Shown in pieces: positions 28,039 through 48,805 of a stretch of DNA of 64,000 bases. The translations under genes were made by a program, and so were the position numbers. The notes under the pieces were generated by a model. The model was not told where the DNA came from. It saw nothing but the letters and a program-made list of their open reading frames with translations, and ran no database searches. Source of the DNA: Flavobacterium johnsoniae UW101 (GTDB lineage: Bacteria; Bacteroidota; Bacteroidia; Flavobacteriales; Flavobacteriaceae); the NCBI RefSeq assembly GCF_000016645.1, contig NC_009441.1:868001-932000 (forward strand), read 5' to 3'. Numbering within the stretch: the stretch's first letter is position 1; each line of letters begins with the position of its first letter.

Positions 28039-31000
28039 TTAATTAAAAACAATTTTCTTAGTTATAATATTTCCATTATCTAAAGTTACTTTCACAATTA
28101 AAACCTGATTTCCGGATTGGAAGTTAGAAACTTGAAACTCCGTGTTTTCTACTTTTTTGTTGTTATAAAGCAGCTTGCCTGAAATATCAAAAATCGAAAC
28201 TTCTCGCATTACATCTTCAGTCGAATTTAATTTTATTGTTTTATCTTTTACAGAAACATAAAAACTATTCGTTTGATTTTCGAAATCATCTGTCCCTAAA
28301 GTGGCGGTAGTGTACCTAATTACAAACCTATCTGAGAATGTTCCAATGGCAGTATTGAAAGTATAATTACTTGTTTGAAGATTATGTAATGTATTTGTCA
28401 ATTTATCTTCTAAATAAACTGCATGGTTTGTCAAATCACCATCTGCATGATCCAGAGAAATTGAAAATTCTCCAGCTATTGCTGATCTATATCCAAGAGG
28501 AACAACATCTGACTCATTAAAAGGAAGAGAACGTCCTTGAATTACTAAGTTCTGTCCTTCATTAATACTGTAAAAATCCAAATGAGGATTTGCATCAGCT
28601 GTAATTGCATCGTAATTATGATCCCAGAAATTAGTAGCTCCTTCAATATAGCCTATTAATAGTTGTTTAAATGCTCCCTGAGTATTTGTTAAATTAATCC
28701 AGACTCTATGTCTTTCGATCGCTGATTTATTGGTTTTATAAAATTGTGTATTATTTGCTGCAACTCGCATCGAATTTGTAAAAACGGCATTTCCTGCTGT
28801 TTTAGATACTACAAAAAATCCCTGTCCTGCGGCTATATACCCCAAAGGAGCACTTTGATTACCCGGCGTCGTTGCTCCTTGGCCAGTCATACCACCAACA
28901 ATTATACTTCCAGATAAATTATAAACTGCATAATCATTATTATCATAATTATATTGTGCACCACCCGGCGTACTGCTGCTTGGCAGACTATTATGGGTCC
29001 AGAAATATAAAGTCCCATATAGGTTGGCTGAATTATTAGCAATAAATTGATCTGCATAAATAGCAGAAGGATATGGGTTTCCCAAAAGTTGAAATGCTTC
29101 TGCTGTACCTAAAGAAACTGAAATTGGTCCATTATTGGGCACTCCAACAAAAGCTCCTAAATAGTTTGCACCCGTATTTAAATCGTTTGTTTGCGGTGCT
29201 CTCACCACATAACCGCGTCCTGGTACCATTTGTTGTGTTCCGTTAAAACTAATAACCCATCCTGCAACAGGATCATAGCTGTAATATTTATCAGCTAATG
29301 TTCCCGGAGATAAATCATAAAGTGTAAATGGGGGCGTTCTTGTAATTGGAGAAGACCAATACGTTAAGTCATAACGTCTAACAGGCGGAGTAATTCTTTT
29401 GTAAGTAATATTTCCAACATTAGTAACATTATTGGTCTGCAATAAACTTGAATTATTCTCAAAAATTAACTGACCTCCATTATTTGTTACTGCATTTGAA
29501 ATTGTTAAAGTATGATTAGAGTTAACCGTAACAGTAAAACCAGAATCTACTATTAGAGAACAACCACTTAAATTTCCTGTTGTTGAATAATTTCCAGAGA
29601 AACGCACCACATCTGTACTTATAGGCGGGCTTCCTTTTGACCAGCTTGTGCCATTCCAAATATTTACAACTGGAGCAATAAGAGTAAGAGTAGACGTAGC
29701 TAGTGATGGGCAGTTTGCAGCATCCTGCACTGTAAATGTATAATTTCCAACTGCTAAATTTGAAATAGTATAAGTTGTTCCGGAAGAATTATAGGTCTGA
29801 GAAGCCGTTCCGCTTTGTGTTATGGTCCAGCTTCCCGCAGGCAGCCCAGTTAAGACAACGCTTCCGGTTGAAGTGACACAATCTGGTTGTGTTACTGTTC
29901 CAAAGCCCGGTGTTGCAATTCTTGAATTTACGGTAATTGTTGCTGTATTATTTGTAAATCCACTGCTTCTTGAACATGTATTGGCTCCTGTTACAGACAC
30001 CAGAGTGTATACTGTAGTTGTAGTAACTGGAGTTGTAAATGTTGGAAAAGCGACACCGCTTGATATATTTGCTGCAGTACGATCTGCACCGCCATTTTCT
30101 TTGTAAACAATTGTATAAGGTCCGGTTCCGGCTGTTGCTGTAAATGTTAATTGTCCACTACCTGTTACACAAAATGGACCATTGGCACTCAAACTGCCTT
30201 GAGGGAGTGGATTTACTGTTATTGTTGCAATAGAAGAATTAACAACTGCGCAATTTCCATTTTGAATTACGGCTCTAAACTGAGAAGTTTCTGTAAGAGC
30301 ACCTGAAGTATAAGTGTTTGTTGTATTTGGAATTGTTGTCCAAACTGTAAAAGGACTCACAGATGATTCCCATTTTATAATAGATCCAGTTTGCCCGCTC
30401 AAAGTCAATGTTCCGCTTGTTGCTCCTGAACAAACTGTGGCAGTTCCGGCTAGAGTTCCGCCAACTGTAGCTGCAAAAACAGTTAATGAGGCTACATTAT
30501 TTGTTGATATATTAGAAGAACATGCTGCAGATGTCAAATTGGTCACTGTAATATTACTTGTTCCAATAACATTTAAGCCTGCTGCTGTAAAAGTTCCTGT
30601 TCCGGGTGTAGTAACATTCATTATAGCTGTTAATCCTGTTCCACTAGGATTACTACGATTATAAGTAACTACATAGGGCCCAATAGGAAGGCCTCCTCCA
30701 CTGGATGTTAAGGTTACTACAGAAGTTGTTCCTACTGAATTACAAACATTTGCGGCAGAAATTCCAGTGATGCTGTAAGTTGGACAAGTATAGGTAATTA
30801 TAACACGGCCTGCCGCTCCCGAACCTCCAATTTGTGCTCCTCCAAGTAACGACTGCATAGCACCACTTCCTCCTCCTCCTGGTGCTGTACCTGCATTTCC
30901 AGGACCATTTCCTAATGCTACACTGGCAACACCAGCACCACCAGCACCGCCGCCGCCGCCGGCTGTTCCACCGGCTCCTGACACAGTTAATAAACCTATT

Positions 31001-31593
31001 GCACCTGTAACTCCATTACCTCCAGCTGCACCATCCAATTTTGATACATTTCCAACTGAACTTGCGGCTGATCCTCCAGCTCCGCCTGCTGGTGTTCCTC
31101 CCGCATTATTTGCACCGCCTCCACCACCGCCTAATGCTAATATAGATGTTTCAAATCCTAAAATGGTAGAACTCCCTCCTGCTGCTCCGTTAACTGCAGC
31201 ACCCGAAACTAAGGCATTTGTAGTTGTACCTGCAACTGATGCATTTAAAGTCGCACCAGCGGCAACAGTTATATTACTTCTTGCATAAGCACCGCCACCA
31301 CCTCCAGCTGCCGCTCTTCCATCTAAAACGGCTCCACTTGCACCTCCACCAGCGCCTCCGCCTCCCCAAGCCTGTACATCCATTGTGGTTATCCCGGCAG
31401 GGACTACGATTGATCCGTTGGAATTAAATGTATGAGGTGGTTGTGCCCATAAAGAAAAACATACAAATAAAAAAAGAAGAGATAGTTTTGCCTTTGAAGA
31501 TGAAATTTTTCCAAAATACAGATTCAAGTAATAAAAGCAATGCGTTAAAACTTGAGGCAAAACCAAAGAGGCTGGTAGTTTTTTTTCCATCAC
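28039..31593 (-). CDS. Giant secreted protein: glycine-rich head, Ig-like repeats, shared C-terminal T9SS module
   Basis: 1184 residues. The signal peptide (AKLSLLFLFVCFSLWAQ) is preceded by an unusually long N-terminus of some 33 residues, and only Met1/Met2 are available as starts. Residues about 70-270 are glycine-rich (WGGGGAGGG, AAAGGGGGAYARS). Ig-like segments with cysteines follow (VCSGATSGTLTLSGQTGS). From about residue 640 a WNGTSWSKGSP repeat leads into the module shared by five genes in this region (RYDLTYWSSP, DKYYSYDP, GNPYPSAIYA, LYFWTHN, YIAAGQGFF). It ends in a sorting domain (ISGKLLYNNKKV, TKKIVFN) of the kind annotated as T9SS type C. Confidence 0.88.
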   Translation of the reverse strand: MMEKKLPASLVLPQVLTHCFYYLNLYFGKISSSKAKLSLLFLFVCFSLWAQPPHTFNSNGSIVVPAGITTMDVQAWGGGGAGGGASGAVLDGRAAAGGGGGAYARSNITVAAGATLNASVAGTTTNALVSGAAVNGAAGGSSTILGFETSILALGGGGGGANNAGGTPAGGAGGSAASSVGNVSKLDGAAGGNGVTGAIGLLTVSGAGGTAGGGGGAGGAGVASVALGNGPGNAGTAPGGGGSGAMQSLLGGAQIGGSGAAGRVIITYTCPTYSITGISAANVCNSVGTTSVVTLTSSGGGLPIGPYVVTYNRSNPSGTGLTAIMNVTTPGTGTFTAAGLNVIGTSNITVTNLTSAACSSNISTNNVASLTVFAATVGGTLAGTATVCSGATSGTLTLSGQTGSIIKWESSVSPFTVWTTIPNTTNTYTSGALTETSQFRAVIQNGNCAVVNSSIATITVNPLPQGSLSANGPFCVTGSGQLTFTATAGTGPYTIVYKENGGADRTAANISSGVAFPTFTTPVTTTTVYTLVSVTGANTCSRSSGFTNNTATITVNSRIATPGFGTVTQPDCVTSTGSVVLTGLPAGSWTITQSGTASQTYNSSGTTYTISNLAVGNYTFTVQDAANCPSLATSTLTLIAPVVNIWNGTSWSKGSPPISTDVVRFSGNYSTTGNLSGCSLIVDSGFTVTVNSNHTLTISNAVTNNGGQLIFENNSSLLQTNNVTNVGNITYKRITPPVRRYDLTYWSSPITRTPPFTLYDLSPGTLADKYYSYDPVAGWVISFNGTQQMVPGRGYVVRAPQTNDLNTGANYLGAFVGVPNNGPISVSLGTAEAFQLLGNPYPSAIYADQFIANNSANLYGTLYFWTHNSLPSSSTPGGAQYNYDNNDYAVYNLSGSIIVGGMTGQGATTPGNQSAPLGYIAAGQGFFVVSKTAGNAVFTNSMRVAANNTQFYKTNKSAIERHRVWINLTNTQGAFKQLLIGYIEGATNFWDHNYDAITADANPHLDFYSINEGQNLVIQGRSLPFNESDVVPLGYRSAIAGEFSISLDHADGDLTNHAVYLEDKLTNTLHNLQTSNYTFNTAIGTFSDRFVIRYTTATLGTDDFENQTNSFYVSVKDKTIKLNSTEDVMREVSIFDISGKLLYNNKKVENTEFQVSNFQSGNQVLIVKVTLDNGNIITKKIVFN

Positions 31594-32077: not shown

Positions 32078-35000
32078 CTAAAAAATGACCTTTTTTGTTA
32101 TTTTTTTATCATTTTTGAGAACTGTTTGTATCAATAAAACCTGTTGAGCTGATTTAAAATTTGATATGCTCATTTGGTTCGTTTCATTGTTTCTCTTTTT
32201 AAAAAGCAAATTTCCTGAAACGTCGTAAATAAAAACTGTGTCTATTTTTTCCTGAGAGGAGTTTATTGTAATGACTTGATTTTTAACAGAAATAAATAAA
32301 GAGTTATCATCATTCTCAAATTCATTAGTTTTTAAATTTTCATTTAAAAAATGAATAGAAAATCTATCTGTAAAGGTGCCTTTATTAGTAGTGAATTTAT
32401 AATTATTTATACTTAAATCTATACTTTTCCCTTCGATGTTATCAAGCAAGTAAACTGGCTGATGACTTAAACAACCATCTGCATGATCTATTTCAATAGT
32501 AAATTCTCCTGCAATTGTTGTTTTGTACCCCAAGATAATTTCATCGCTGTCTTTAAAGGGTAATCCCCTGCCCTGAATTACTAATTTTTTATCTTCGATT
32601 ATGCTATAAAAATCAACAAATTGATTTCCGTCTAAAGTTTCACCGTCAAAGTTTATATCATAACCATTTGTTGCACCATCAACATATCCTAATAATGTCT
32701 GTTTAAAAGCTCCTTTCTCATTTCTAAAATTCAACCAAATTCTATGTTTTTCGATAGTTTTTTTGGCAATTTTAAAAAAGGCATTATTTTTATCTTGAAT
32801 CCGCATACTATTATTAAACTCAATGGTTTCAGGCAGATTACTCTTTAAGAAAAAGGCCTGGCCGGAAGCAATGTTCCCATCTGGAATAAAATCATTAATA
32901 CCATCAGATACTGCTCTGGTGCCAATTCCGCCAACTAAATTATAAACGGCATAATCATCTTCTGAATATTCATAATTAGTTATAGGAGTATTGTGTGTCC
33001 AAAAATATAATGCACCTTTTGTTTTAAATTCATTTTTTCTTAGAAAAAGATCCGCATCAATTGCTGAAGGATAGGGATTCCCTATTAAATTAAAACTATC
33101 ATTTTGTCCTAATTTGATTTCTATTTTACCATTGTTTGGAATTCCTTTAAATACAGCTTCATAAATAGTGGGCTGTTCTATCGAAAATTCCTGAGGGCCT
33201 CTGATAATATATCCTTTTCCCAAAATCATATTATTTGAAGGATTTTCTATTTTCCAATTATCTATTGTTTCGTCATAAGACATATATTTATCAAATAAAG
33301 TCTGAGGTGAAACATCAATTAATTTTTGATTGTTCACCGGCGACGACCAATATGTATAATCGTATCTTAAAATAGGCTTTGTTTTTCTCTTTAGATGAAT
33401 AATACCGTTATTTATCGTCTCATCATCGCATTGGTATAAACTTGCTGAATCTTCTAAAACTAAAATTCCATTTCCTAAATAAGAAAATTCAATTCCTAAT
33501 GTATTTCCTTCTAAAAGTGTTACTGTTTTTCCGGAATCAATAGTGCAGCTGCAGACTTCAGCAGAATTTAGATTTGGATAATCTGCTTTAAAAAAAACTT
33601 CTTTTCCTCCGGAAGGATAACCATTTGACCATGAAATGCCATTCCATTCTGTAGATTCTAAACAGAGTTTTAATCTTGCTATTCTGTGTTTTGAAAGATC
33701 AGAAACAGAGTTGAAATTTCCTCCAATCAGTAATCTGTAATCAGAAGTAAAACTTAATGAGAAAAGTTTATTGTTAAGAGGAGAACTAAACGAAGGATCA
33801 AATTCTCCTGTTTTTAATAATCGAATTAATCGGAACGAAGGATTGCTTTTATAAGTTCCAGAAAATGTACCGCCTGCCAAAATTCTGTCGTCAGGCTGGA
33901 TCAAAATTGTCCTGACTTCTCCCTTATTGAAACCAGAACCTGATTCAAAAGAATTATCAAGAGTTCCATTAGAATTTAAACGTAAAATTCCTTTTTGTGT
34001 TATTCCATTAAAGGTTGTAAAAGAACCGCCAACAATTATTTTTCCATCAGATTGTAAAGCTAATGCGTAAACGTTTTTGTTAAATCCTGTACCAATTGAA
34101 AAACCTGAATCAATACTGCCATCGGTGTTTAATCGAACCAAATGAGAAAGAGACTGTCCGTTAAAAGTAGTAAATCTTCCTCCAACTAATATTTTCCCAT
34201 CGGGCTGAATCAATACAATTTCAATAACAGCTTCAGCGCTTAGTCCTGCATTAAAAGTCATATCTTTTGATCCATCGGGTAATAACCTTATTATTCTTAC
34301 TGCTGAAGGATCATTATTGTATCGTGTAAAATGCCCCGCAGCAATTATTTTATTATCTGGCTGAATCGCTATTGAATATATCTGATTATTAAAACCTGCA
34401 CCAGTACTAAATGTATTATCAATGCTTCCATCTGGCAAAATACGAACAATACGATTACAGGTTAAATCATTATATTTTGTAAACTTTCCTCCAAATATAA
34501 TTTTTCCGTCATCCTGAATTACAGCCGTATCTATTAAGTCATTCGCTCCAGATTGACTTCTATTAAAATTTTGATCTAATGAACCATCTTCCAGGAGTTT
34601 TGTTATTCTGTTTACTGAGTTATTATTAAACTTGGTAAAGCTTCCAAATACCATGGTTTTTTTATCATTTAGCGAAATTATCTTTAAAACAGAATTATCG
34701 AACCCTATTCCTGCTGTCAGGTAGCTTGAATCAAGTTCACCATGATCATTAATTTTTGCCAATCGGCCTTGATTTTGTCCATCAAAAACCGAAAATGAAC
34801 CGCCTACAAACCAAGATCCTTCTAAATTATTTTCTAGAGTTAAAACAGAAGCTGATGCTGGACCTGATCCTATATCAAAATCACTTTTAATTGTCCCATT
34901 TGAATTTAGCAATACAACTCTGTTAACATTCGTTCCATTATATTGATTTGTGAATGATCCGCCAACCATAATATTACCCGAAGAATCTGTTTTTATGACT

Positions 35001-35920
35001 TGAACCGTTCCATTATTAAAACCAGAGCTCAAAAAAGCATTGTCTATTGAGCCATCTTCATTGAGGCGGATAATTCTATTGGCTTCATTACCATTATATG
35101 AAGTAAAATTTCCTCCAAGAATAATTTTTCTATCATTTTGAATCGCTATTGCGTTAACATCATCATTAAAACCTAAACCTATATTAAAACTTGTATCAAC
35201 AGTTCCATCAAGATTTAATCTAATTATTCTATTACTTGAAAAACCATTAAATGAAGTAAAATTTCCTGTAACTAAAATTTTTCCATCCCATAAAACCCTT
35301 GTGTTTGTAATACTTAGAGCAGAACCGATTCCTGTTAAAAACGAGGTATCTATATCTCCATTGGGAAGAATTCTGGCGATTCGATTTACAGTTACATTAT
35401 TATATTTTGTAAAACTTCCTGAAATTATAATTTTTCCATCTGGCTGAATACTAATACCTGATATAATTCCTGTTGTTGCACCAATAATGGTGTTGAATGA
35501 TAGATCTTGAGAGCCATCATTATTTAAACGGATTAGTCTTCCTGCATTTCTTCCGTTAAATGATGTAAAACTTCCCGCTGCGATTATTTTTCCATCTGAT
35601 TGAATATTTGAAGCATAGACTTTTCCATTAAAACCAATTCCAGTATCAAAACTATTATCAATTGTTCCATCTTCATTTAATCTGGTGAAATATGCTGATA
35701 AAATTCCGTTAAGACTTGTATAGTCTCCGCCCACTATTAAGCTCTCGTCAGACTGCAATAAAAGAGTTCGAACTACATTATCAAAACCATCTCCTTTTAG
35801 TCCATCATCAAGAGTATTAAAAGTAGCATCAACTTTTCCTTGTTGTCCAATAACATTTAATGGCAAGGCCGTAAAAATTAGTGAACAAATTATGTTTTTA
35901 ATCAAATCCAAAATAAGCAA
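32078..35920 (-). CDS. Giant secreted protein: about 14 delta-60 propeller repeats plus shared C-terminal T9SS module
   Basis: 1280 residues with a signal peptide (IICSLIFTALPLNVIGQ). Residues about 30-770 consist of about 14 repeats of 50-55 residues with the delta-60 (DUF5122) pattern: QxDGKIIxxGxFTxxNG then RIxRLxxDGSxDxxF. They probably form one or two beta-propellers. A WNGISWSNGYP segment follows, then the shared module (RYDYTYWSSP, LFDKYMSYDE, IGNPYPSAIDA, LYFWTHNTP, ASGQAFFL) and a sorting domain ending ITKKVIF. It sits in tandem with the next giant gene on the same strand but behind that gene's terminator. Confidence 0.9.
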   Translation of the reverse strand: MLILDLIKNIICSLIFTALPLNVIGQQGKVDATFNTLDDGLKGDGFDNVVRTLLLQSDESLIVGGDYTSLNGILSAYFTRLNEDGTIDNSFDTGIGFNGKVYASNIQSDGKIIAAGSFTSFNGRNAGRLIRLNNDGSQDLSFNTIIGATTGIISGISIQPDGKIIISGSFTKYNNVTVNRIARILPNGDIDTSFLTGIGSALSITNTRVLWDGKILVTGNFTSFNGFSSNRIIRLNLDGTVDTSFNIGLGFNDDVNAIAIQNDRKIILGGNFTSYNGNEANRIIRLNEDGSIDNAFLSSGFNNGTVQVIKTDSSGNIMVGGSFTNQYNGTNVNRVVLLNSNGTIKSDFDIGSGPASASVLTLENNLEGSWFVGGSFSVFDGQNQGRLAKINDHGELDSSYLTAGIGFDNSVLKIISLNDKKTMVFGSFTKFNNNSVNRITKLLEDGSLDQNFNRSQSGANDLIDTAVIQDDGKIIFGGKFTKYNDLTCNRIVRILPDGSIDNTFSTGAGFNNQIYSIAIQPDNKIIAAGHFTRYNNDPSAVRIIRLLPDGSKDMTFNAGLSAEAVIEIVLIQPDGKILVGGRFTTFNGQSLSHLVRLNTDGSIDSGFSIGTGFNKNVYALALQSDGKIIVGGSFTTFNGITQKGILRLNSNGTLDNSFESGSGFNKGEVRTILIQPDDRILAGGTFSGTYKSNPSFRLIRLLKTGEFDPSFSSPLNNKLFSLSFTSDYRLLIGGNFNSVSDLSKHRIARLKLCLESTEWNGISWSNGYPSGGKEVFFKADYPNLNSAEVCSCTIDSGKTVTLLEGNTLGIEFSYLGNGILVLEDSASLYQCDDETINNGIIHLKRKTKPILRYDYTYWSSPVNNQKLIDVSPQTLFDKYMSYDETIDNWKIENPSNNMILGKGYIIRGPQEFSIEQPTIYEAVFKGIPNNGKIEIKLGQNDSFNLIGNPYPSAIDADLFLRKNEFKTKGALYFWTHNTPITNYEYSEDDYAVYNLVGGIGTRAVSDGINDFIPDGNIASGQAFFLKSNLPETIEFNNSMRIQDKNNAFFKIAKKTIEKHRIWLNFRNEKGAFKQTLLGYVDGATNGYDINFDGETLDGNQFVDFYSIIEDKKLVIQGRGLPFKDSDEIILGYKTTIAGEFTIEIDHADGCLSHQPVYLLDNIEGKSIDLSINNYKFTTNKGTFTDRFSIHFLNENLKTNEFENDDNSLFISVKNQVITINSSQEKIDTVFIYDVSGNLLFKKRNNETNQMSISNFKSAQQVLLIQTVLKNDKKITKKVIF

Positions 35921-36000
35921 TTATAAATTGTAAGAATTTGCCGAAATTAAATCGATTCGAAAAATAATACAATACCCACTTTTGGTGATTTTTAAAATAA

Positions 36001-36034: not shown

Positions 36035-36058
36035 CAATTAATATAAAACTATTGATTA

Positions 36059-39000
36059 TTAAAAAACGATTTTTCTGGTTACCTCTGCATTGTTTTCAAG
36101 ATTAACTTTTACAAGCAGCACCTGATCGGCTGACTGAAGGTTTGAGATTGATAATTCAGTATTGCTGACTTTCTTTTTATTATAAATCAGTTTTCCTGTA
36201 ATATCGAAAATGTTTACTTCTTTAATGTTCTCTTTTGCAGAAGTAACTTTGATAGTTTTATCTTTTACAGAAATTAAAAGTCCGTCTTTTACATTTTCAA
36301 AATCACCAGTTCCTAATGTTTTATTAGTGTAACGAAGTGCAAAACGATCTGTAAAAGTTCCTGCTTCTGTTTTAAAAGTATAGTCCTGAGCTTTTAAATC
36401 TGAAACAGTTCCTGTTGTTTTGTCTTCCAGATATACATTCTGGTTATCAAATAATCCGTCAACGTGATCAATTGAAATCGTAAAATCTCCCGCAATTGTT
36501 GTTTTGTACCCTAACGGAATCACATCGCTGTTCTCAAAAGGCAGTCCTCGTCCCTGAATGGTTAAAGACATATTTTGGTTAATACTGTAAAAATCTGTAT
36601 AGGTATTTGCATCCATAGTTTCTGCATCGTATTGAATGTCCCAATTGTTTGTTGCGCCATCAATATATCCTACTAAGAGCTGTTTGAAAGCTCCTTCTTT
36701 ATTGGCAAAATTCAGCCAGATACGGTTTCTTTCGATATTATCTGTTCCTGTTGTTTTATAAAACTGGCTGTTATTGCCTGAAACTCTCATGTTATTTGTA
36801 AACAAAATGCTGTTTCCTGTTCCATTGTTGGTAAAGAAAGCCTGTCCCGCTGCAATATATCCAACCGGAGTCTGAGCAGCATTTGAAGTTGTGACACCTC
36901 CTGATGAATTAAAAACCGCATAGTCACTGCTTGTGTAATTGTATGTAGCATCTCCTGAAACAGCATCGCTTGGAGGGGCATTATGCATCCAGAAATATAA
37001 TGATCCTATAGTGCTGTTTGCTGATAAAAGCTGAAAAGCATTTACGGCAGAAGGATAGGGATTCCCTATTAAATTAAAACTGTTTGGAACTACATTAACT
37101 GTAACATTTCCGTTATTTGGAACTCCAACAAAGGAAGCAGGATAAACTGCCGGTGTTACAATATCAAAAGTCTGCGGAGATCTAACGATGTAACCGCTTC
37201 CTTTGGCCATTGGCAGTATTCCATTAAAACTTATTATCCATCCTGCAGCAGGATCATAGCTGTAATATTTATCTAGAAGTGTTGCCGGCGAAAGGTTTGC
37301 CAGTGTAAAAGCAGGAGTCGAAGTTACTGGTGTTGACCAATAGGTGAAATCGTAACGACGTACCGGCTGTGTATCTCTTCTGTAAGTGATGTTTCCTGAA
37401 TTGATATTTGTTCCGGTATTAGTTTGAAACAAACTAGAATTATTATTGAAAGTTAAAGAAGCACCACTATTTACTGTTAAAGCATTTACAACATGTAATG
37501 TTATTCCAGATGGGACAACTAAATTAACAGGAGAATTAACTGTGCAGGCACATACTGTTAAATCTGCTGTTATAGAATAAGCTCCATTAAAGACCGCAGC
37601 TTTTGTGGCATTTGGCGTTCCGTTTGACCAAGCAGTACCGTTCCAAGTTGTAGAGGATTGATCTGTAACAACTGCATTTGCACTTGCTGGTGATTTACAT
37701 CCTGTTGAATTGGTTACTCTAAAAGTGTATGTCCCTGCCGTAAGACCTGTAATTGTTGTAGTTATTCCTGAGCCGGTTGTAGTAATAAGTCCAGGACTAC
37801 GTTCTATAGTCCAATTACCTGAAGGCAGATTTGTTAATTCTATTGTTCCCAAAGCGGCACACCCTGTATTAGTTATTGTACCAATAACTGGCGGAGCAAG
37901 TAAGTCTATGCTTGTTGGAATATTATCCGTAAAGGTTTGTCCTGAAATATCTTCTATTAGATTTAACGAAGGATCTGTTCCAGTAACCTTTGCTGAATTT
38001 ACAACTCTTCCCAAATTTACATCAGATGCCGTTATGGTATAAGTACCAGTAACCGTTGCTGTAGCCCCCACTGCTAAACTACTGATGGGATTTCCAGTTA
38101 TTATTACTCCCGGCATCGGATCAGTTACTGTTATATCTGTAATTGGCACTTCTCCTGTATTTCTTACATCAAAAGTATAATTAATAACATCTCCTTCTTT
38201 TCCACATGATGGCATTGAAGCTTTTTTTACTAAACCTAATTCAGCAATTTTTAGAGAATTTGTATTAAAAGCTATAAAAGCGCAATCTGAATTTCCTGAA
38301 AAGGTAACAACAAATCGATCAACTTGTGATGCATTAGCAGCTGTTATTCCAAATTCACTTGTTTCGATTCCCAAAACACGAATGTCTCTTGTTGCTGCCG
38401 GAGTAAAACCATATGTCCCATCCATCTTAAATAAATCAAGACTATAAGTTCCAACAGCATTAACCGAAATAAAGTTTATAGACAATTGATTTCCTACAGT
38501 GTTGCCTGATGCATCAATGAATTTGAAAGTATCTGGTGTTCCTCCAGGTTCTGCTACCTGAGTCACAATTAAATCAGGAATTCCATCGCCAATACCGCTT
38601 GAATTTAAATTATTAGTTCCTATTTTAAATTCAGCGACACCCGCTTTTATATTTGCAACACCAGTTCCTAGTGTTAATCCGTTAACACCATCTGTTAATC
38701 TTGAAGCTAGTTCAGCACCTGTTGCAGTTGCTCCTGCTATTGGCGGCACTAAGGTAGCTGTTGAGGCAGATCCATCTATCATAGAACCTTGTAAAAAATA
38801 CATACTCGTGGTGGAACCTAAATTTTGAATCTTTAAAGCTCTAAATCTTTGAGGATTGTAAGTAACGGCATTGTTGTTAAGAATAGTGTTATTTACACCT
38901 GTAGAATAAATAGTTCCATTCCATGTAAAAGCCAATAAATTATTGACATCGTCAGGTCGATTTCCTACTCCGGTTAAACCAGTTGATGACCAATAACCCT

Positions 39001-39268: not shown

Positions 39269-42200
39269 CTATTTGAAAATAATTTTCTTCGTTAGAGTAT
39301 AATTATTGTCTAATATAATTTTTACTAACAATACCTGATCGGCTGACTGCAGGTTTGATATTTGCAATTCTGTGGTTCCAACTTTATTTTTATCATAAAT
39401 AAGTCTTCCCGATATATCATAAATTGCGGTACTCTTTATATTTTCTTTATTAGAAGTCACTTTGATTACCTTGTCTTTTACAGAGACCAATAGACCATTA
39501 TCTACATTTTCAAAGTCTCCTGTTCCTAATGTTTTGTTTGTATAACGCAGCGTAAAACGATCATCAAAAGTTCCTGCTTCTGTTTTAAAGGTATAATCAC
39601 CTGCTTTTAGATCATAAATTGTGCTCGTTTTTTTATCTTCTAAATAAACAGCTTGGTCATTAAACACTCCATCTACATGATCTATAGAGATTGTAAAGTC
39701 TCCTGCAATAGATGTATTATAACCAAGAGGAATTATATCGCTGTTTTCAAAAGGAAGTGCTCGCCCTTGAATCGTTAATTGCAAAGCATCATTAATACTA
39801 TAAAAATCTACATAACTGTTACCTGCCATAGTTTCGGCATCGAAACCATTATCTAAACTATTTGTAGCTCCTTCGATATAACCAACTAATGCTTGCTTGA
39901 ATGCTCCTTGTGTGTTTGTAAAATTCAACCATAAACGATTTCTCTCAACCTCTTCTGCAGCCTTAGCAGTTTTAAAGAATTGTGTATTATTTCCACCAAC
40001 ACGCATATCATTAGTAAACACAATATTATTACTTGAACTTGCATTAATAAAGAAAGACTGTCCTGCTGCAATGTATCCGCTAGGAGCAGCTGCACCACTA
40101 GAAGTTGCAACACCACCACTAAAGTTATAAACAGCATAATCATTGCTTGTGTAATTGTAAGTTGCATCACCCGAAACAGTATTACTAGGAGGTGAATTAT
40201 GCGTCCAGAAATATAATGAGCCAACATTATTGTTTGCCGTCATAAGTTTTTGAGCGTCTAGAGCCGATGGGTATGGGTTTCCAATTAAATTCCATTGACC
40301 ACCTACTGGAGTTATTGTGACATCTCCATTATTAGGAACACCAATAAAAGAAGCGGTATATACTGCCGTGCTGTTTATATCATAAGATTGAGGTGCTCTT
40401 ACAATATATCCCTGACCTGGAGTCATAACTTGTGTTCCATTATAATTAATTGCCCATCCTGAATTTGGATTATAACTGTAATACTTATCTCCAAGTGTAT
40501 TTGGTGATAATTTATATAATGTGAAATTTGATGCTAGTGTTACCGGCGATGACCAATAACTGAAATCATAACGACGTACTGGCGCTGTATTTCTCTGCAT
40601 TTCAAATGAAGTCACTGCTCCTGTGTAAGCTGCAGCAGTTGTATTTTTTTGTAATAATGATCCATTATTTTGAATAAGCAATTTTCCTGTTCCTGCAACA
40701 TTTATGGTTTCATCTACAGTTAAAGTTCTGTTCGCAGGAATTGTAAAAGTGACTCCTGTGTCAACTGTACATGAACAAACCTGAAGATCTGAACCCAAAG
40801 TAGTATTTGCACTAATTCTTATAGAAGTATCACTTGCTAAAGTCCCTGACCCATTATAAACCGTTGGTGTATCAATAAAATTAACCGCTATGTTTGCATC
40901 TCCTCCATCTTCTCTTAGACGAATTTCAACTGTTGAATTTTTATTCAACAAATAAGTTGTACCTCCATTTATAATTGCTGAAGTACCTGTATAACCATTT
41001 TGAGTAAAAACTTTCGTTCCATCTACATAAATCTCTCCTACGTCATCACAATTTACTAATTGAATCTGGTAACGCCCGCAAGGAAATCCCTGACGTTTGT
41101 AAGTAATTGTAAACTGATCAACTCCAACAGGAGCCCCAAGCCAGCTTGAAGCTGCAGAGGGCGAGCTTGTTCTTCCCCATGATGTTTGAGTGTTAACATT
41201 CACATTATTGTCTACATACATTCCAGCATAAGCATATGATGGCAGATTGATATTAGCTACTGTAAAACCATATACATTCCACTTGTTGTCACCAAATGGA
41301 AGCGCAACGTTTCCTTGAATTTGACCATATGAAAACGATACTCTTGAATCTCCATCATTTTCAAAATATTCTAAAATAAAATTATGTGTTCCGGCAGTAA
41401 GATCAACTTGTGCTGCATAAGTATTATAACTATGAACACCATAAGAACCTGTTGGAGCTACAGTTACTAAACTTCCATCGACATATAATCTTACACCATC
41501 ATCTCCTCCAATTGTGAAATTGTATCTTCCGGCTGCTGTAGTAGTCTGCATTTTATAACGAACGAAAAATTTATCAGAAGGCGGAGTATCACACGGAATG
41601 TTTCTAGTAACTCCATTTACCTGACCTGATGTCACATTTCTATCAAAAAGAGCATTTTCTGTAACAGTTCCAATATAAGTCGATGTCGCAGATACTGGTA
41701 ATGTAGTTGATGTAGCTGGATTTGGATAAGCAGTTCCCGTCCAAGAATATACATAACCAAGCCAAGAATTTACACCAAATGTTGTTTGATCTCCTGATGG
41801 TGTACATTGAACAAGTTCATCTGCACCCATATATGGCTTTACTCTCGTATCTCCGTCAATATCTGTTGTGATACCAGAAATGGTAACTCCTGTTAAACTT
41901 TCATTATTGGTATTATTTGTAATTAAATGAAAATCTGAAGCACTGACAAATGAAGGAGCAACACTTAATGAGTTTCCGTCCTGAGATGTCGCAACTCTCC
42001 AATCAGCTATTGTAGCTGCATCAGCATTATTTAATCGTCCTAACGTACCTCCAGAACTTGTTATATAATCATTTCTGTTAATATTTGAAAATACACTTCT
42101 ATTTGTTAATGAGTAGACAGCATATCGTAAACCCGATCCTGTTTGGGAATTATAAAAAATATTATTTCTAATATCTAAATTACTTCCATCTGATATAAAT

Positions 42201-43324
42201 AAACTTGCAGATAATCCCGTTTGATTTACATTAAGAACAACTGTATTGTAATATAAATTTATTCTATTCCCTTTAACAAAATAAATACCATGTCCAGCAT
42301 TATTGTAATCATACTGGCCACCAGTAGAAGAAGCTATTCCACTTATAAAATTATTGACAATATTTAAGTTTGCAGTTACTGAATTATCAAGATCGATGTG
42401 TATTCCACTGCCTAAACCAGAACTTTTCACACTTGAAATTCTATTTCTAGAAATAGTACAGCCTATACTTCTATCATATAAATTAATTCCAGAAATAAAA
42501 GTACTGTTTGATGACATTGCAACCCCTAATATAGAGTTACCTGTAACCAATGTATTTTGAGTATTTGATAACTTAATTGCATTTACAACAATTACATCGG
42601 CTGCATTTGCAGAACCGAAAGTATTATTATTTATGGTTAAATTTTGATTATAAGAAGTTCCACCAAAAGTCCATATTCCAAATTTCATTCTTGTAAAGAT
42701 GTTATTCGAAATAGTATTATTTGAATTTGATATTGTTTCTGCTGTCTGCATATTGTTTGCATCACTAATAACGACACCCGCAGAAGTTGAACTTGTAGCA
42801 TCTACACCAGAACCAACAAACTGTATGTTCCTTAAAGTATTATAAGTCGCTGCGTCGGCGGCCTTATTTGTAATCCACAAAATAGCTGAATGTATTTGAG
42901 TGAAATTATTATAATTTACTGTTGAAGTATTACTAATGATTAAGTTACTTGAAGTTGTATTATTATTACTTCCATCTATTGTAACATAATCTGTTCCTTC
43001 TAACTTTAAAATTGGCGCTGTACTTGTATTACCTATATTTCCAGTAATAGTAATATTTCTATTTGTATTTGGCTTTATTGTTAATGTCTTTGCAGCGCTA
43101 AAATCTGATCTGTCTATAAAAATAGTTGATGTTACTGTTTGATTTTCATCTAGTAATAAAGTAACAGGACCTGCAATCCCAGTAGAATTGATACTTGTAA
43201 TAGCTGTAGCCAAAGTTTTAAATGGTGCTGGCTGTGAATTACCAATAACATAACTCGCACTTGCAAGCTGCGCACTACCTAAAAAAGGTATTAAAAACAA
43301 AAATAAAAGTAAAGTTTTTTTCAT
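39269..43324 (-). CDS. Giant secreted protein: beta-helix, two PA14-like domains, shared C-terminal T9SS module
   Basis: 1351 residues, signal peptide MKKTLLLFLFLIPFLGSAQ. Residues about 60-490 look like a right-handed parallel beta-helix (many short NN-rich turns such as NTISNNIFTRMKFGIWTFGG, then LVTGNSILGV). Two consecutive PA14-like or lectin-like domains follow (RYNFTIGGDDGVRLYVDGSLV, HNFILEYFENDGDSRVSF; and RYQIQLVNCDDVGEIYVDGTKV). From about residue 918 comes the module shared by the five genes (RYDFSYWSSP, DKYYSYNP, GNPYPSALDA, YIAAGQSFF), clearly diverged from copies A and B. It ends TLTKKIIFK. A TATATTTG box lies on the minus strand at 43377-43384. Confidence 0.9.
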   Translation of the reverse strand: MKKTLLLFLFLIPFLGSAQLASASYVIGNSQPAPFKTLATAITSINSTGIAGPVTLLLDENQTVTSTIFIDRSDFSAAKTLTIKPNTNRNITITGNIGNTSTAPILKLEGTDYVTIDGSNNNTTSSNLIISNTSTVNYNNFTQIHSAILWITNKAADAATYNTLRNIQFVGSGVDATSSTSAGVVISDANNMQTAETISNSNNTISNNIFTRMKFGIWTFGGTSYNQNLTINNNTFGSANAADVIVVNAIKLSNTQNTLVTGNSILGVAMSSNSTFISGINLYDRSIGCTISRNRISSVKSSGLGSGIHIDLDNSVTANLNIVNNFISGIASSTGGQYDYNNAGHGIYFVKGNRINLYYNTVVLNVNQTGLSASLFISDGSNLDIRNNIFYNSQTGSGLRYAVYSLTNRSVFSNINRNDYITSSGGTLGRLNNADAATIADWRVATSQDGNSLSVAPSFVSASDFHLITNNTNNESLTGVTISGITTDIDGDTRVKPYMGADELVQCTPSGDQTTFGVNSWLGYVYSWTGTAYPNPATSTTLPVSATSTYIGTVTENALFDRNVTSGQVNGVTRNIPCDTPPSDKFFVRYKMQTTTAAGRYNFTIGGDDGVRLYVDGSLVTVAPTGSYGVHSYNTYAAQVDLTAGTHNFILEYFENDGDSRVSFSYGQIQGNVALPFGDNKWNVYGFTVANINLPSYAYAGMYVDNNVNVNTQTSWGRTSSPSAASSWLGAPVGVDQFTITYKRQGFPCGRYQIQLVNCDDVGEIYVDGTKVFTQNGYTGTSAIINGGTTYLLNKNSTVEIRLREDGGDANIAVNFIDTPTVYNGSGTLASDTSIRISANTTLGSDLQVCSCTVDTGVTFTIPANRTLTVDETINVAGTGKLLIQNNGSLLQKNTTAAAYTGAVTSFEMQRNTAPVRRYDFSYWSSPVTLASNFTLYKLSPNTLGDKYYSYNPNSGWAINYNGTQVMTPGQGYIVRAPQSYDINSTAVYTASFIGVPNNGDVTITPVGGQWNLIGNPYPSALDAQKLMTANNNVGSLYFWTHNSPPSNTVSGDATYNYTSNDYAVYNFSGGVATSSGAAAPSGYIAAGQSFFINASSSNNIVFTNDMRVGGNNTQFFKTAKAAEEVERNRLWLNFTNTQGAFKQALVGYIEGATNSLDNGFDAETMAGNSYVDFYSINDALQLTIQGRALPFENSDIIPLGYNTSIAGDFTISIDHVDGVFNDQAVYLEDKKTSTIYDLKAGDYTFKTEAGTFDDRFTLRYTNKTLGTGDFENVDNGLLVSVKDKVIKVTSNKENIKSTAIYDISGRLIYDKNKVGTTELQISNLQSADQVLLVKIILDNNYTLTKKIIFK

Positions 43325-43731: not shown

Positions 43732-44202
43732 TTATTTTTGTTCCAATTCTTTAACTTTCTCATAAACAAGATCACTTTCATAGCCTCTTCGAAGCATATA
43801 ATCACAAAACTTTTTGCGCTTTTTGAAAGTATCGTTTTCATGTATAGAATTCCAGCATCTTTCAGCGAGATTCTCGAAAGTTTCAAAATATTCTTCAGAT
43901 GAAATTTCTTTTAAAGCAAGTGAAATATTTGTTGAAGAAATATGACGAGCTTTTAATTCGTTCGTAATTCTAATTTTTCCCCAATATTTTATTCGATGTT
44001 TGCCTCTTGCAAAACTGCAGGCAAAACGAGTTTCATTTAAAAAATTTCCTTCAATTAGCTGAACAACAATTATATTAACCTCTTCAGTTGTCATTTTTAA
44101 ACTATATAGTTTAGAGACAACTTCATCATGGCAACGTTCCTGATAGGCACAAAAATGCTCTAATTTCTGTAAAGCTTCTTTTGCAGTGTAAATTTTACTC
44201 AT
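43732..44202 (-). CDS. recX: Regulatory protein RecX (RecA modulator)
   Basis: 156 residues, a helical RecX-type protein with three-helix repeats: LEHFCAYQERCHDEVVSKL, then IVVQLIEGNFLNETRFACSFARGKHRIKYWGKIRI, EYFETFENLAERCW and FCDYMLRRGYESDLVYEKV. RecX limits or tunes RecA filaments. recA is not in the window. It lies inside the interval between the two 1.4-kb inverted repeats, where homologous recombination would act, but that placement may be chance. Confidence 0.88.
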   Translation of the reverse strand: MSKIYTAKEALQKLEHFCAYQERCHDEVVSKLYSLKMTTEEVNIIVVQLIEGNFLNETRFACSFARGKHRIKYWGKIRITNELKARHISSTNISLALKEISSEEYFETFENLAERCWNSIHENDTFKKRKKFCDYMLRRGYESDLVYEKVKELEQK

Positions 44203-44494: not shown

Positions 44495-47400
44495 ATGATT
44501 AGAAAACTACTCTTACTCATTATTTTATTTATACAATACCTAAGTTTTGGACAATCTGCGAATAATTATTGTTTTAGTTCTTCCACAAGTACATATAGCA
44601 ATTTAACTGGCGCAACAGCTTTTCCTGGAATGCCAACTAATGGCAATAATGATGATGTTATTTCTTCTTTTTCTACCTTGCCATTTACATTTAATTTCGC
44701 AGGAATAAATTATACTCAGATCAAAATTAGTGAGAATGGCTGGTTATCTTTTGCTAATGTTAACAATGCATATTTCGATAATTCTGCCGCAAATGCTAAT
44801 AATGCAAAGCCAATTTTATTTCCATTTTGGGATGATATGGTTTATAGTTCTGTACCTAGATATCGCATTGATACAGTTTCTGGAAGCCGAATTCTAAAAA
44901 TTGAATGGATTCAACAATATTTTTATAATGGAAATAATGGAAATGCAATTTCGTTTCAAGTGTGGCTATATGAAGGATCAAATAAAATTGAATATAGATA
45001 TAGTCGTGGAAACAACAATTCAGGAAATATAAGTGCCTCAATTGGTATTTATGATGCAAATGGGAACTACATTACTTTAAATGATTCTGGTTCAAATCCG
45101 ACTGGTCAAGTCGATACTTTCACTACTAGTATTAACGCAAGACCTGCTACTAATCAAGTATATACTTTCACACCTCCTCCAGCACAACCAACTCCTACTC
45201 AAGCAGGATCTTTGTACACTTTTTGTATTGACAACAGCAATACACAAACCAATACTGTTAGTAATGGTCAATATTCATTAGTGAATGTTATTCAGGGATA
45301 TAATTACACCTTTTCTGTAGACAATATATTTGCAGGAGCAGAGAATTTAACATTATTAGACAACTCAAATAACAATTTAAGCCCTAGTGTTGTATCATCC
45401 GGAACTAGTGGTGCAACAGTTACCTGGACAGCTACTTTCTCAGGACAAGTACGGGTACTTTTAACAGGTAATTGTGGAGAGACAAATAGCGGTACAATGA
45501 CTCTAAGATTAAACTCTGCCGCCAATACACTTGACAGCCAAACAACGGCAGGAGCAAATAACACCTGGATAGGCCATGTATATAATTCTGTAGGAGCCGC
45601 TCCTTCACCATTTACAAATGCAAATTATGCAGGTTATTATACGATAGGAACTGAAAACTTTGATACAGACTTTGGCGGTGACTACACTTGTTTTCCTGTA
45701 TTTTCAAATGGAGTACAAAGAGCTTCGATGTATACAGAAGGGTTTGCTGTAAGATACCGCATGCAGTCAACAAGACCTGCAGGATGTTATTTAATTCGAA
45801 TAATAGGAGATGACGGAGTAAGATTATCTATAAATAATGGCGGGTATATTTTAGACAGATGGGTAGAACAAGGCGCTACTACATACAGCAACATTTTGGT
45901 AAATGTTCCTGCAAATCCAATTTTCACATTAGAATACTATGAAAATGCAGGTGCCAACAGAGTTGCTTTTAACATAACACCATTTGACGCTGCATTGAAT
46001 ACCATCACAGCTCCAGCTACAGTAAATTTCTGCAATGGAGGAGATCCGGCAGTTATTGACGGCTCACTTCAATATAACAGTGCCGATCCTAATGCAGCAA
46101 ATCCATATATCAACTTTCAATGGCAGATACAGACTGATGGCGGCGGATTCTCTAATATTCCAGGAGCGACAGGAAGAACATACGATCCTCCTGCAATGGC
46201 TGCGAACGGCACGGCAAATGATATTGTATACCAATATCGACGTTTGGCTACCAGCAATGTAGCAGGAACCGGAACTGCTTGTGATTTTACAGCAAGTACT
46301 CCCGTTACCATTACAAACAGTCCAACAAGTGTTGGCGGAACTGCTTCTGCAAACCAATCGATTTGTTACGGAACTCAGCCTGCTAATATTACATTAAGCG
46401 GCTATAGAGGTAATATACAATGGCAGGCATCTATAGATAATACAAATTTCAACAATATTGACGGAGCAACAACAGCCGTCTTAGCTGGTTCTCAAATAGG
46501 TACTTTAACAAAAACTACTTATTACAGAGCAACAACAAGTGGAACGTGCAATACAGCAACTTCTACAGTAGTTACAATCACTGTTAGAGCAGGTAATAAT
46601 ATTATTAGTTATAGTAACGGAACTTCTGGAACTGTTTGTATGCAGCCTGTAGAAAATGCAGTAGGAAGCCTGACTGCACCAGCTGGAACTTATTTTAACA
46701 ATGTAAGTTTTGCCAGTTATGGAACACCAACAGGAACAGCTTGTGGTTCATTTGTAATAAATCCTTTCTGCCACGCGGCAACTAGTCAATCAGTAGTTGA
46801 AAGTGCGCTTTTAGGTAATAGCAATACAATTTTAATTGCTGCTACAAATGGTAACTTTACAGATCCTTGTGTAGGAACAACTAAAAGATTATATATTACT
46901 GCATCTTATTCTCAATCTATATGTGCAGGAAATTTACCTGGAACAATTACCGGATCTATTCCAACAGGTAATGATACTTACACTTATTTATGGGAAAGCA
47001 GTACAACCAGCAATACAACTGGTTTCTCTGCTGCATCAGGAACAAATAATGGACAAAATTATACTCCTGGAACTTTAACACAAGACACTTGGTTTAGAAG
47101 AACTGCTTACGACGGCGCTTGTTCTTCTGTATCTGCAGTTGTTTTAGTAAAAGTAATTGCAAAAGTATGGAATGGAAATACAAATACTGACTGGAATACA
47201 GCGTCTAACTGGACACCAAACGGCGTACCAACTGCATCTGACTGTGTTGTAATACCAAATACAACTAATAAACCAATTATTAACGGAACTAATACTAATT
47301 CATACGCCAATACTCTTTCTGTAAATAATTTAGGAGCTTTAACTGTAAACAGCACAAACACCCTTAACATAACTAATACAATAGCAGTAAATACTACGGG

Positions 47401-48805
47401 TTCATTAACTTTCAACAATAATTCTAGTTTATTACAAACTAATACCGGAACAAATATCAATTCAGGAAACATTACTTACAGAAGAGATACCCAGCCGGTA
47501 CGTCGTTACGATTTTACCTATTGGTCAACACCTGTAACTTCGACTCCTGCTTTTACACTGGCCAATCTTTCGCCGGCAACACTTTTAGATAAATATTACA
47601 GCTACGATCCTGCTGCAGGATGGATAATAAGTTTTAATGGAATATTGCCAATGGCCAAAGGAAGCGGATACATCGTTAGATCTCCGCAGACTTTTGATAT
47701 TACCATCCCGGCAGTCTATCCGGCATCATTTGTTGGAGTTCCAAATAACGGAAATGTTACAGTTAATGTAGTTCCAAACAGTTTTAATTTAATAGGGAAT
47801 CCCTATCCTTCTGCCGTAAATGCTTTTCAGCTTTTGTCAGCAAACAGCACTATAGGATCATTATATTTCTGGATGCATAATGCTCCTCCAAGCGATGCTG
47901 TTTCAGGAGATGCTACATACAATTACGCAAGCAGTGATTATGCGGTTTTCAATTCATCAGGAGGTGTTACAACTTCAAATGCTGCTCAGACTCCGGCTGG
48001 ATACATTGCAGCGGGACAGGCTTTCTTTACCAACAATGGAGCAGGAAACAGTATTTTGTTTACAAACAACATGAGAGCTTCAGGCAATAACAGCCAGTTT
48101 TATAAAACAACAGGAACAGATAATATCGAAAGAAACCGTATCTGGCTGAATTTTGCCAATAAAGAAGGAGCTTTCAAACAGCTCTTAGTAGGATATATTG
48201 ATGGCGCAACAAACAATTGGGACATCCAATATGATGCAGAAACTATGGATGCAAACACCTATACAGATTTTTACAGCATTAACCAAAATATGTCTTTAAC
48301 CATTCAGGGACGAGGACTGCCTTTTGAGAACAGTGATGTAATTCCGTTAGGATACAAAACAACAATTGCAGGAGATTTTACAATTTCAATTGATCATGTT
48401 GACGGATTATTTGATAAACAGAATGTATATCTGGAAGACAAAACAACAGGAACTGTTTCAGATTTAAAAGCTCAGGACTATACTTTTAAAACAGAAGCGG
48501 GAACTTTTACAGATCGTTTTGCACTTCGTTACACTAATAAAACATTAGGAACTGGTGATTTTGAGAATGTAAAAGACGGACTTTTAATTTCTGTAAAAGA
48601 TAAAACTATCAAAGTTACTTCTGCAAAAGAAAATATTAAAGAAGTAAACATTTTCGATATTACAGGAAAACTGATTTACAATAAAAAGAAAGTCGGAAAT
48701 ACTGAATTATCAATCTCAAACCTTCAGTCAGCCGATCAGGTGCTGCTTGTAAAAGTTAATCTTGAAAACAATGCCCAGATAACCAGAAAAGTGATCTTTA
48801 AATAG
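44495..48805 (+). CDS. Giant secreted protein: nidogen-like/PA14-like/Ig-like head plus shared C-terminal T9SS module (copy B)
   Basis: 1436 residues, signal peptide MIRKLLLLIILFIQYLSFGQ. Residues about 25-230 resemble an extracellular Nidogen-like domain (ISENGWLSFANV, PFWDDMVYSS, FQVWLYEGSNKIEYRYSRG). A PA14-like domain lies near 340-500 (NNTWIGHVYNS, IRIIGDDGVRLSINNGG, FTLEYYENAGANRVAFNI), followed by Ig-like repeats. A WNTASNWTPNGVP repeat precedes residues 971-1436, nearly identical to the tail of the gene at 36059-39124 in opposite orientation. It ends ITRKVIFK. It is the only one of the five on the plus strand. Confidence 0.9.
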   Translation: MIRKLLLLIILFIQYLSFGQSANNYCFSSSTSTYSNLTGATAFPGMPTNGNNDDVISSFSTLPFTFNFAGINYTQIKISENGWLSFANVNNAYFDNSAANANNAKPILFPFWDDMVYSSVPRYRIDTVSGSRILKIEWIQQYFYNGNNGNAISFQVWLYEGSNKIEYRYSRGNNNSGNISASIGIYDANGNYITLNDSGSNPTGQVDTFTTSINARPATNQVYTFTPPPAQPTPTQAGSLYTFCIDNSNTQTNTVSNGQYSLVNVIQGYNYTFSVDNIFAGAENLTLLDNSNNNLSPSVVSSGTSGATVTWTATFSGQVRVLLTGNCGETNSGTMTLRLNSAANTLDSQTTAGANNTWIGHVYNSVGAAPSPFTNANYAGYYTIGTENFDTDFGGDYTCFPVFSNGVQRASMYTEGFAVRYRMQSTRPAGCYLIRIIGDDGVRLSINNGGYILDRWVEQGATTYSNILVNVPANPIFTLEYYENAGANRVAFNITPFDAALNTITAPATVNFCNGGDPAVIDGSLQYNSADPNAANPYINFQWQIQTDGGGFSNIPGATGRTYDPPAMAANGTANDIVYQYRRLATSNVAGTGTACDFTASTPVTITNSPTSVGGTASANQSICYGTQPANITLSGYRGNIQWQASIDNTNFNNIDGATTAVLAGSQIGTLTKTTYYRATTSGTCNTATSTVVTITVRAGNNIISYSNGTSGTVCMQPVENAVGSLTAPAGTYFNNVSFASYGTPTGTACGSFVINPFCHAATSQSVVESALLGNSNTILIAATNGNFTDPCVGTTKRLYITASYSQSICAGNLPGTITGSIPTGNDTYTYLWESSTTSNTTGFSAASGTNNGQNYTPGTLTQDTWFRRTAYDGACSSVSAVVLVKVIAKVWNGNTNTDWNTASNWTPNGVPTASDCVVIPNTTNKPIINGTNTNSYANTLSVNNLGALTVNSTNTLNITNTIAVNTTGSLTFNNNSSLLQTNTGTNINSGNITYRRDTQPVRRYDFTYWSTPVTSTPAFTLANLSPATLLDKYYSYDPAAGWIISFNGILPMAKGSGYIVRSPQTFDITIPAVYPASFVGVPNNGNVTVNVVPNSFNLIGNPYPSAVNAFQLLSANSTIGSLYFWMHNAPPSDAVSGDATYNYASSDYAVFNSSGGVTTSNAAQTPAGYIAAGQAFFTNNGAGNSILFTNNMRASGNNSQFYKTTGTDNIERNRIWLNFANKEGAFKQLLVGYIDGATNNWDIQYDAETMDANTYTDFYSINQNMSLTIQGRGLPFENSDVIPLGYKTTIAGDFTISIDHVDGLFDKQNVYLEDKTTGTVSDLKAQDYTFKTEAGTFTDRFALRYTNKTLGTGDFENVKDGLLISVKDKTIKVTSAKENIKEVNIFDITGKLIYNKKKVGNTELSISNLQSADQVLLVKVNLENNAQITRKVIFK
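47405..48801 (+). repeat. 1.4-kb inverted repeat, copy B (shared C-terminal module)
   Basis: Inverted partner of 36061-37457, 1397 bp, equal length. The unique interval between the copies is about 9.95 kb and contains the N-terminal halves of both genes, the beta-helix gene and recX. Confidence 0.85.

Follow-up and report, generated by a model that had tools for sequence, protein, structure and literature searches.

RemA is, with SprB, among the adhesins that have been linked to gliding in the Bacteroidota. In Flavobacterium johnsoniae, RemA is the name given to Fjoh_0808 (PMC5445135) and RemZ that given to Fjoh_0803, which is termed a RemA homologue (PMC10994853). As described in the available portions of these and related papers, the C-terminal domains (CTDs) of RemZ and RemA sit in SprA against PorV, the CTDs being the only parts resolved in the published SprA complexes (PMC10994853); the RemA CTD is enough for secretion of a reporter and permits both anchoring and release (PMC12618676; PMC10994853), and surface foci and release of RemA have been reported in the papers cited here. 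In F. psychrophilum, the accessible text of PMC5808330 describes a 1.9-Mb inversion flanked by adhesin/PorP repeats. Here we describe a cluster of five genes, two of which encode RemA and RemZ, in a 64,000-nucleotide stretch of the F. johnsoniae UW101 chromosome (contig NC_009441.1, positions 868,001 to 932,000; the window, to which all coordinates refer). We consider it probable that this is a recombining cluster, in which the conserved 3′ modules of the genes recombine and flip a block carrying recX, and in which the variable N-terminal head is replaced at the RemA position. RemA, RemZ and the binding of their tails by PorV and SprA were known already; the position-dependent replacement of heads, the homogenisation of modules, the inversion of the block and the mosaic joins are new here. 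No account of the five-gene family, the module, the inverted repeat or the inversion was found in the literature covered, from which subscription papers are mostly absent, and the 2012 RemA paper may already describe the similarity.

We identify the locus as the F. johnsoniae RemA/RemZ adhesin cluster. Gene E (44495..48805, + strand) encodes the gliding-associated lectin RemA and matches PDB chain 8gl6_D (1436 aa) over its whole length, and gene A (28039..31593, − strand) encodes RemZ and covers all of PDB chain 8gl8_D (1114 aa). Between them lie genes B (32078..35920), C (36059..39124) and D (39269..43324), all on the − strand. All five products are cargo of the type IX secretion system (T9SS), 1021–1436 aa long as judged from the open reading frames (ORFs), that of A possibly being shorter. 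The heads comprise a glycine-rich/Ig region in A, a DUF5122/delta-60 propeller in B, a DUF7507/DUF11-like region in C, a PA14-domain region in D and, in E, a SUEL lectin domain with a PA14-like stretch. A preliminary description of this DNA had reported five ORFs with a common C-terminal module, and all are present at the span that it gave. Setting the start of the module 60 residues before a conserved RYD landmark gives a length of about 490 residues, and places the modules at 28042..29556 (A, −), 32081..33544 (B, −), 36062..37537 (C, −), 39272..40732 (D, −) and 47321..48802 (E, +); from the landmark to the stop codon they measure 446, 429, 433, 435 and 434 residues in A to E. Pairwise identity is 46–65%, a level that over such a length we judge to lie far beyond chance, and a single pair, C–E, reaches 93.9%.

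The similarity of the C and E modules takes the form of an inverted repeat of 1430 nt (left arm 36057..37486 in the C module, right arm 47375..48804 in the E module) that is 95% identical: 70 positions are mismatched, and the longest exact run is 147 nt. It extends from about 54 nt inside the start of the modules to the stop codons, with 11 mismatches in the first 50 nt, and past either end ungapped identity is at most 50% per 50 nt. An inverted repeat (89% over 1489 nt) is also found in F. cupreum (L093), in which the genes are arranged differently, and the two contig ends of L089 are 96% identical over 585 nt.

To place the modules in a wider context we read 20 clusters, this one and those of 19 other genomes, giving the position labels A to E from gene order; genomes, loci and proteins used for comparison are referred to by G, L and P numbers, the present genome being G000. 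The nearest relative of a module lay in the same genome for 23 of 82 modules, in another genome with the same class of head for 46, and in another genome with a different class of head for 13. A tree of 67 of these modules, from 15 of the clusters (G005, G051, G075, G108 and G114, which have other layouts, were excluded), places all B modules in one clade and, apart from that of G053, all A modules in another. In nine of the 15 genomes (G000, G015, G042, G053, G079, G083, G091, G096 and G103), two or more of the C, D and E modules cluster by genome, so that we regard these modules as homogenised; in G000 and G091 the third of them stays outside the genome group. A single clade of C modules is rejected (approximately unbiased (AU) test, p 2e-8), although the C heads are orthologous.

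Fifteen clusters contain modules in both orientations. The longest exact DNA match inside the genome joins an inverted pair in 13 of them and a direct pair in the other two, G053 and G103; these longest matches measure 149 nt in G079, 147 in G000, 71 in G042, 59 in G083 and 47 in G015, and go down to 17–29 nt in several clusters. Exact matches of at least 40 nt occur in 5/61 inverted pairs, 2/73 direct pairs and 2/386 random between-genome pairs. Mosaic patterns of identity are seen on comparison of RemA with P0001, P0019, P0027 and P0004, of C with P0015 and of D with P0008 and P0011. Against P0001, RemA is 40–78% identical over residues 1–240 and 90–100% thereafter, whilst against P0019 identity is 8–40% over residues 1–240, 70–100% over 241–960, 50–72% over 961–1280 and 90–100% over 1281–1436; C and P0015 are 52–82% identical over residues 1–880 and 95–100% over 881–1000. 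The joins, as placed by these alignments, fall both inside the head and inside the module, and exchange of segments among modules is shown by sequence comparison. Symmetric contig ends at modules were also considered as a general sign of collapsed repeats and were set aside: among 11 loci examined (seven being whole contigs), the ends are near-identical in L085 (97% over 110 nt) and L089 (96% over 585 nt) only, L099 shows 81% over 719 nt, and the remaining eight show weak or no similarity.

The heads behave very differently from one position to another. In 15 clusters with 65 modules (two extra genes labelled X were omitted), we counted the pairs of genomes in which at least 60% of the shorter head could be aligned. 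This was so for 105/105 pairs at B and 15/15 at C, for 57/105 at A and 47/105 at D, and for 11/91 at the RemA position (occupied in 14 genomes), where 25/91 pairs show no alignment outside the last 250 residues. Module divergence is similar across positions, with median identities of 53–59%. The B class of head is found in 18 of the 20 clusters and the C class in six. By comparison with G079, the C heads are 75% identical over their full length, and alignment of the RemA head is confined to the last 200 residues (36% identity); between G006 and G063, the modules at the RemA position are 94.7% identical and the heads are rearranged. Nine heads at the RemA position of other genomes matched Ig_7, PKD_6, PA14, GEVED, fn3, F5/8 type C and Big_2 above the Pfam cut-offs, with SUEL (25.8 bits against a cut-off of 31.4), DUF642, laminin G, Ig_3 and others below them, and one had no match. 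Replacement of heads is thus position-dependent on these alignments, those at the RemA position changing and those at B and C being kept, and exchange of heads in front of a conserved module, as apparent from these comparisons, is supported. The suggestion in the preliminary description that the module is a display platform with swapped heads therefore holds as regards exchange before a conserved module and fails in its generality, because the B and C heads are conserved; nor is the module simply a platform, since the sorting tail and the part upstream of it are separable (see below). We rejected the copying of a second DUF7507 head into the RemA position of L091, L093 and L103: the resemblance is confined to the region next to the module (37–38%), with a separate 103-residue match of 56% in L103.

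The segment bounded by the C/E inverted repeat contains recX (43732..44202, −), and the orientation of this block varies. With bioB and the cupin gene to the left, recX is oriented oppositely to the A/B side in 17 of the 20 clusters, the order being A− B− (RemA position)− recX+ D+ (C+); some of these clusters lack one or more of the genes, and four have genes on a single side. In G000 and G079 the order is A− B− C− D− recX− E+, and one cluster was unreadable. The difference between the two layouts is the one expected from crossing over of the E module with the C module. We call them ‘ancestral’ and ‘inverted’, respectively; the terms are our own and the order of states is inferred from frequency. 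To extend the comparison, 40 loci with C orthologues (L080–L119) were examined. Nineteen were assigned to a class from the gene that follows C, seven having the G000 layout and twelve the other, and L092 was classed through G091; 12 ended too early, two (L108, L118) had no recognised neighbour and six (L110–L114, L116) had other layouts, among which L110, L112, L113 and L114 also have B after C, lack recX on the locus and were left out of the count. Loci L120–L155, with a partial or weak match to the C head, were not classed. L105, L119 and L092 were taken to be G079, G053 and G091. Together with six genomes of known layout selected from those read (G000; G361, which has the G000 layout; and the ancestral G103, G042, G057 and G015, from gene order), the 20 classed loci give a set of 26 genomes, in nine of which the block between the C and E modules is flipped.

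Genomes of the G000 type are scattered over housekeeping-gene trees. On a 26-genome LepA tree the arrangement requires five changes, at least two of them forced by well-supported branches, and a single clade of such genomes is rejected (AU p 1.7e-4). A 25-genome ProRS tree (eight inverted) requires six changes, at least three being forced, and again rejects one clade, whilst the joint LepA and ProRS tree of 25 genomes requires five, with at least three forced by well-supported branches, and rejects one clade at AU p 1e-6; UBA7680 was omitted from the ProRS and joint trees on account of three ProRS matches in its assembly. Repeated inversion of the recX block is the simplest reading of these patterns, and inverted repeats bounding the segment, by which invertible loci are recognised, are present. 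A terminator adjacent to KS was considered as proof of the right breakpoint but is similar in most sequences of both types and was dismissed as too generic. The product of recX is a regulator of RecA; of the 20 clusters, 19 have recX alongside, possibly by coincidence.

A number of observations weigh against a recombining cluster of this kind. The D and E modules separate as orthologues in G006, G057, G063, G077, G088 and G109, so homogenisation is not universal. Long exact matches (2/73 of at least 40 nt) are shared by direct pairs too, and in the several clusters where the best inverted match is only 17–29 nt it falls within the between-genome range, in which 10/386 pairs reach 25 nt. Four of 11 protein comparisons (C–P0002, C–P0005, D–P0010 and A–P0114) are uniform, with no mosaic, and the C gene is present in only six of 15 genomes. 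The trees, built on two housekeeping genes, contain a number of weakly supported forks, and the LepA tree shows some clustering of the two labels; the two orientations are seen between species; and transfer of whole clusters between species could yield the same scatter of arrangements. This last is the basis of one rival explanation, that horizontal transfer of ready-made clusters, rather than repeated inversion in place, spread the two arrangements. Transfer of surface loci is common, and the arrangements are indeed scattered over the trees. However, bioB, cupin, KS and bioA flank the cluster in both types wherever they are on the stretch read, the differing segment begins and ends at module genes, and inverted repeats occur in both types of arrangement, all of which leads us to regard transfer as unlikely. 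The absence of any exchange, with the five genes being old, diverged paralogues that arose by plain duplication and descended vertically, would account for the single clade of B modules, the near-single clade of A modules and the orthologous D and E modules of the six genomes just mentioned, but is contradicted for C, D and E by the module tree, in which these modules group by genome in nine of 15 genomes even though the C heads are orthologous, as the 75% full-length identity with G079 illustrates; given also the sharp 95% repeat and the mosaic proteins, we consider vertical descent alone to be highly improbable. Scarcely more credible is a phase-variation switch, in which inversion would turn expression of the adhesins on and off. 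Surface genes enclosed by an inverted repeat invite such a reading, and the F. psychrophilum inversion, as described in the accessible text of PMC5808330, offers a precedent. The arms of the repeat here, though, are at the 3′ ends, so that inversion would leave every head with its own upstream region and an intact module, and no on/off switching is to be expected; nor was a recombinase found among the 19 neighbouring proteins of the window that were scanned.

The other rival concerns the module itself, and proposes that the whole of it anchors the proteins or couples them to the gliding track, with the heads as passengers. In its favour, the module is common to all five heads and, at E 1e-10, has matches in 110 of the 121 genomes of the genus, G000 among them. 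Its distribution shows the module to be an unmodelled domain, separable from both head and tail. Nine places in this genome score above the type C sorting-tail cut-off but the full module is present at five only, and a ChiA-like protein (L215, 1578 aa, with two GH18 stretches), which we take to be ChiA, matches module positions 408–493 alone and thus has the tail without the module. In the accessible text of PMC12618676, moreover, localisation is assigned to the CTD. Tails that pass the TIGR04183 cut-off follow the module in three genomes from this class but other orders (L218, L219, L222) and in one from this order but a different family (L221), the heads of this group including DUF4394 and FG-GAP; in another class (L220) only module positions 14–298 are matched. 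This domain, for which there is as yet no model, is therefore found ahead of both type A and type C tails, and with headless module proteins also present in this genome, a platform role for the whole module seems to us possible but doubtful, if less so than horizontal transfer. A sample of the phylum yields module matches at E 1e-5 in 43 of 296 genomes, of which 18 belong to the genus. Among 120 listed of 2543 RemA-module homologues, the Pfam tags include SUEL, PA14, F5/8 type C, LamG, fn3, Ig-like, DUF7507 and glycine-rich. The profile search that the preliminary description had proposed thus finds many kinds of head on the module, other orders included. Its concern that the module might be a known domain tied to one kind of head has no basis in these results: many types of head are carried, and the 400-odd residues preceding the tail had, in the proteins scanned, no match to a family of Pfam or NCBIfam.

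Several further proteins bear on the extent of the module. Elsewhere on the chromosome, L076, L077 and L078 are proteins of 276–278 aa that comprise an N-terminal stretch, module positions 268–493 and a type C tail. L079:1058–2857 encodes a 599-aa protein with a signal-peptide-like start and the whole module but no head, the tail of which is of type A (PF18962, 31.3 bits against 27). In G015, an in-frame TAG interrupts the propeller gene B (L050:4245–6968) close to the module's end, and the product would lack its sorting tail.

The sorting tails proper occupy 28045..28209 (A, −), 32081..32245 (B, −), 36062..36226 (C, −), 39275..39439 (D, −) and 48635..48799 (E, +). Against the type C profile NF033708, the last 55 residues of A to E score 66.4, 65.3, 62.4, 54.3 and 59.9 bits, and all pass the curated cut-off of 40. 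None passes either type A profile: for TIGR04183 (cut-off 23) A, C and E score 19.2, 18.4 and 17.6 bits and B and D give no match, and for PF18962 (cut-off 27) A and C score 17.5 and 16.3 bits and B, D and E give none. The available text of PMC10994853 and PMC12618676 nonetheless terms the RemZ and RemA tails type A, and that of the review PMC10202324 calls ChiA type C. The tails called type C by the profiles are thus the ones seen bound to PorV, and the review and the RemA/RemZ papers, to the extent that their text is available, differ in their naming. A profile built from 103 modules weakly matches the CTDs of gingipain (RgpB) and NucA over its last 50–80 positions (E 0.016–0.05, PDB sequences), the only other matches in that search being RemA, RemZ and two at chance level; because of this weak match, the type C tail looks like a divergent form of the type A CTD fold.

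The five proteins differ in the detail of their landmarks and heads. GNPYPSA is present in all five, as the preliminary description had it, but its other landmarks are approximate, each being off in some of the five: RYDxTYWSSP is exact in A and B only (RYDFTYWSTP in C and E, RYDFSYWSSP in D), DKYxSYD is found in A, B, C and E (DKYYSYN in D), LYFWTHN in A, B and D, and AAGQxFF in A, C, D and E. Nor are the heads wholly unrelated: D and E have a PA14-like stretch in common (36% over 155 aa), the 133 aa adjoining the module are alike in A and C (38%), and 89 aa are alike in A and E (34%). The terms ‘beta-helix’ for D and ‘nidogen-like’ for E find no Pfam match at E 0.1. Overlooked at that stage were the C/E inverted repeat and the SUEL (galactose/rhamnose-binding) lectin domain of RemA (46679..46903, +; residues 729–803), which scores 35.9 bits against the Pfam cut-off of 31.4 and has no match in A to D in a Pfam scan. 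Among the heads, GC content as a possible sign of foreign origin is distinctive in A alone, at 0.433 against 0.343 in its module. A hydrophobic N-terminal stretch ending near AQ or GQ can be read by eye in all five proteins, in A only from an upstream start. The deposited RemZ (PDB 8gl8) begins some 70 residues inside the ORF of gene A; the upstream frame (31384–31593, −) adds a signal-peptide-like stretch, LSLLFLFVCFSLWAQ, again read by eye, and the deposited start, which lacks it, is probably too late for a T9SS cargo protein.

Taken together, these results suggest how a recombining RemA/RemZ cluster might work. Each protein begins with a signal peptide (as read by eye) and a variable head, which are followed by the conserved pre-sorting module and a T9SS tail of type C. 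In the genes around recX the modules recombine by gene conversion, which keeps some of them alike in nine of 15 genomes, and those in inverted orientation apparently also cross over, flipping the block between them; RecA-type homologous recombination is the likely agent. The head at the RemA position is replaced or remodelled, those at D and A partly so, and those at B and, where present, C are kept. The module itself may serve as a spacer or as a folding unit that links the head to the sorting tail, and may also provide the stretch of homology that lets heads re-join a working export end. Contact with sugars or phage might select for new heads; the 2012 RemA paper is said to describe a role for RemA in phage resistance. 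More tentatively, and with somewhat less than even confidence, we propose that the module is the recombination landing pad of a locus for the diversification of T9SS adhesins, with a rapidly replaced, lineage-specific, sugar-binding head displayed at the RemA position. If the RemA position is indeed a site of head swapping, the specificity of gliding and aggregation would be expected to change quickly between strains.

The cluster sits inside what appears to be a split set of biotin genes (25929–27020 and 50175–54841), with a BATS/radical SAM gene on one flank and genes for a class III aminotransferase, an AAA_26 protein and a class I aminotransferase on the other. Further T9SS cargo is encoded at 21412–24099 (−), a reprolysin-like metalloprotease with a P-domain and a type A tail above cut-off.

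How, then, does the locus compare with systems already described? Proteins E and A are the RemA and RemZ of PDB entries 8gl6 and 8gl8, for which the published complexes, in the available text, resolve the CTDs only. All five tails pass NF033708, a family founded on ChiA, but the module that precedes them is some 400 residues longer and is absent from ChiA. With the type A CTD they have in common the translocon site and PorV, according to the published structures as available, but all five fall below both type A cut-offs. The closest parallel to the inversion is that of F. psychrophilum, which, in the portion of PMC5808330 available, likewise lies between inverted repeats containing T9SS adhesin genes; there, the repeats are 10 kb long and the inverted segment 1.9 Mb, whereas here the repeat is the 3′ module, the block is about 10 kb and the heads are variable.

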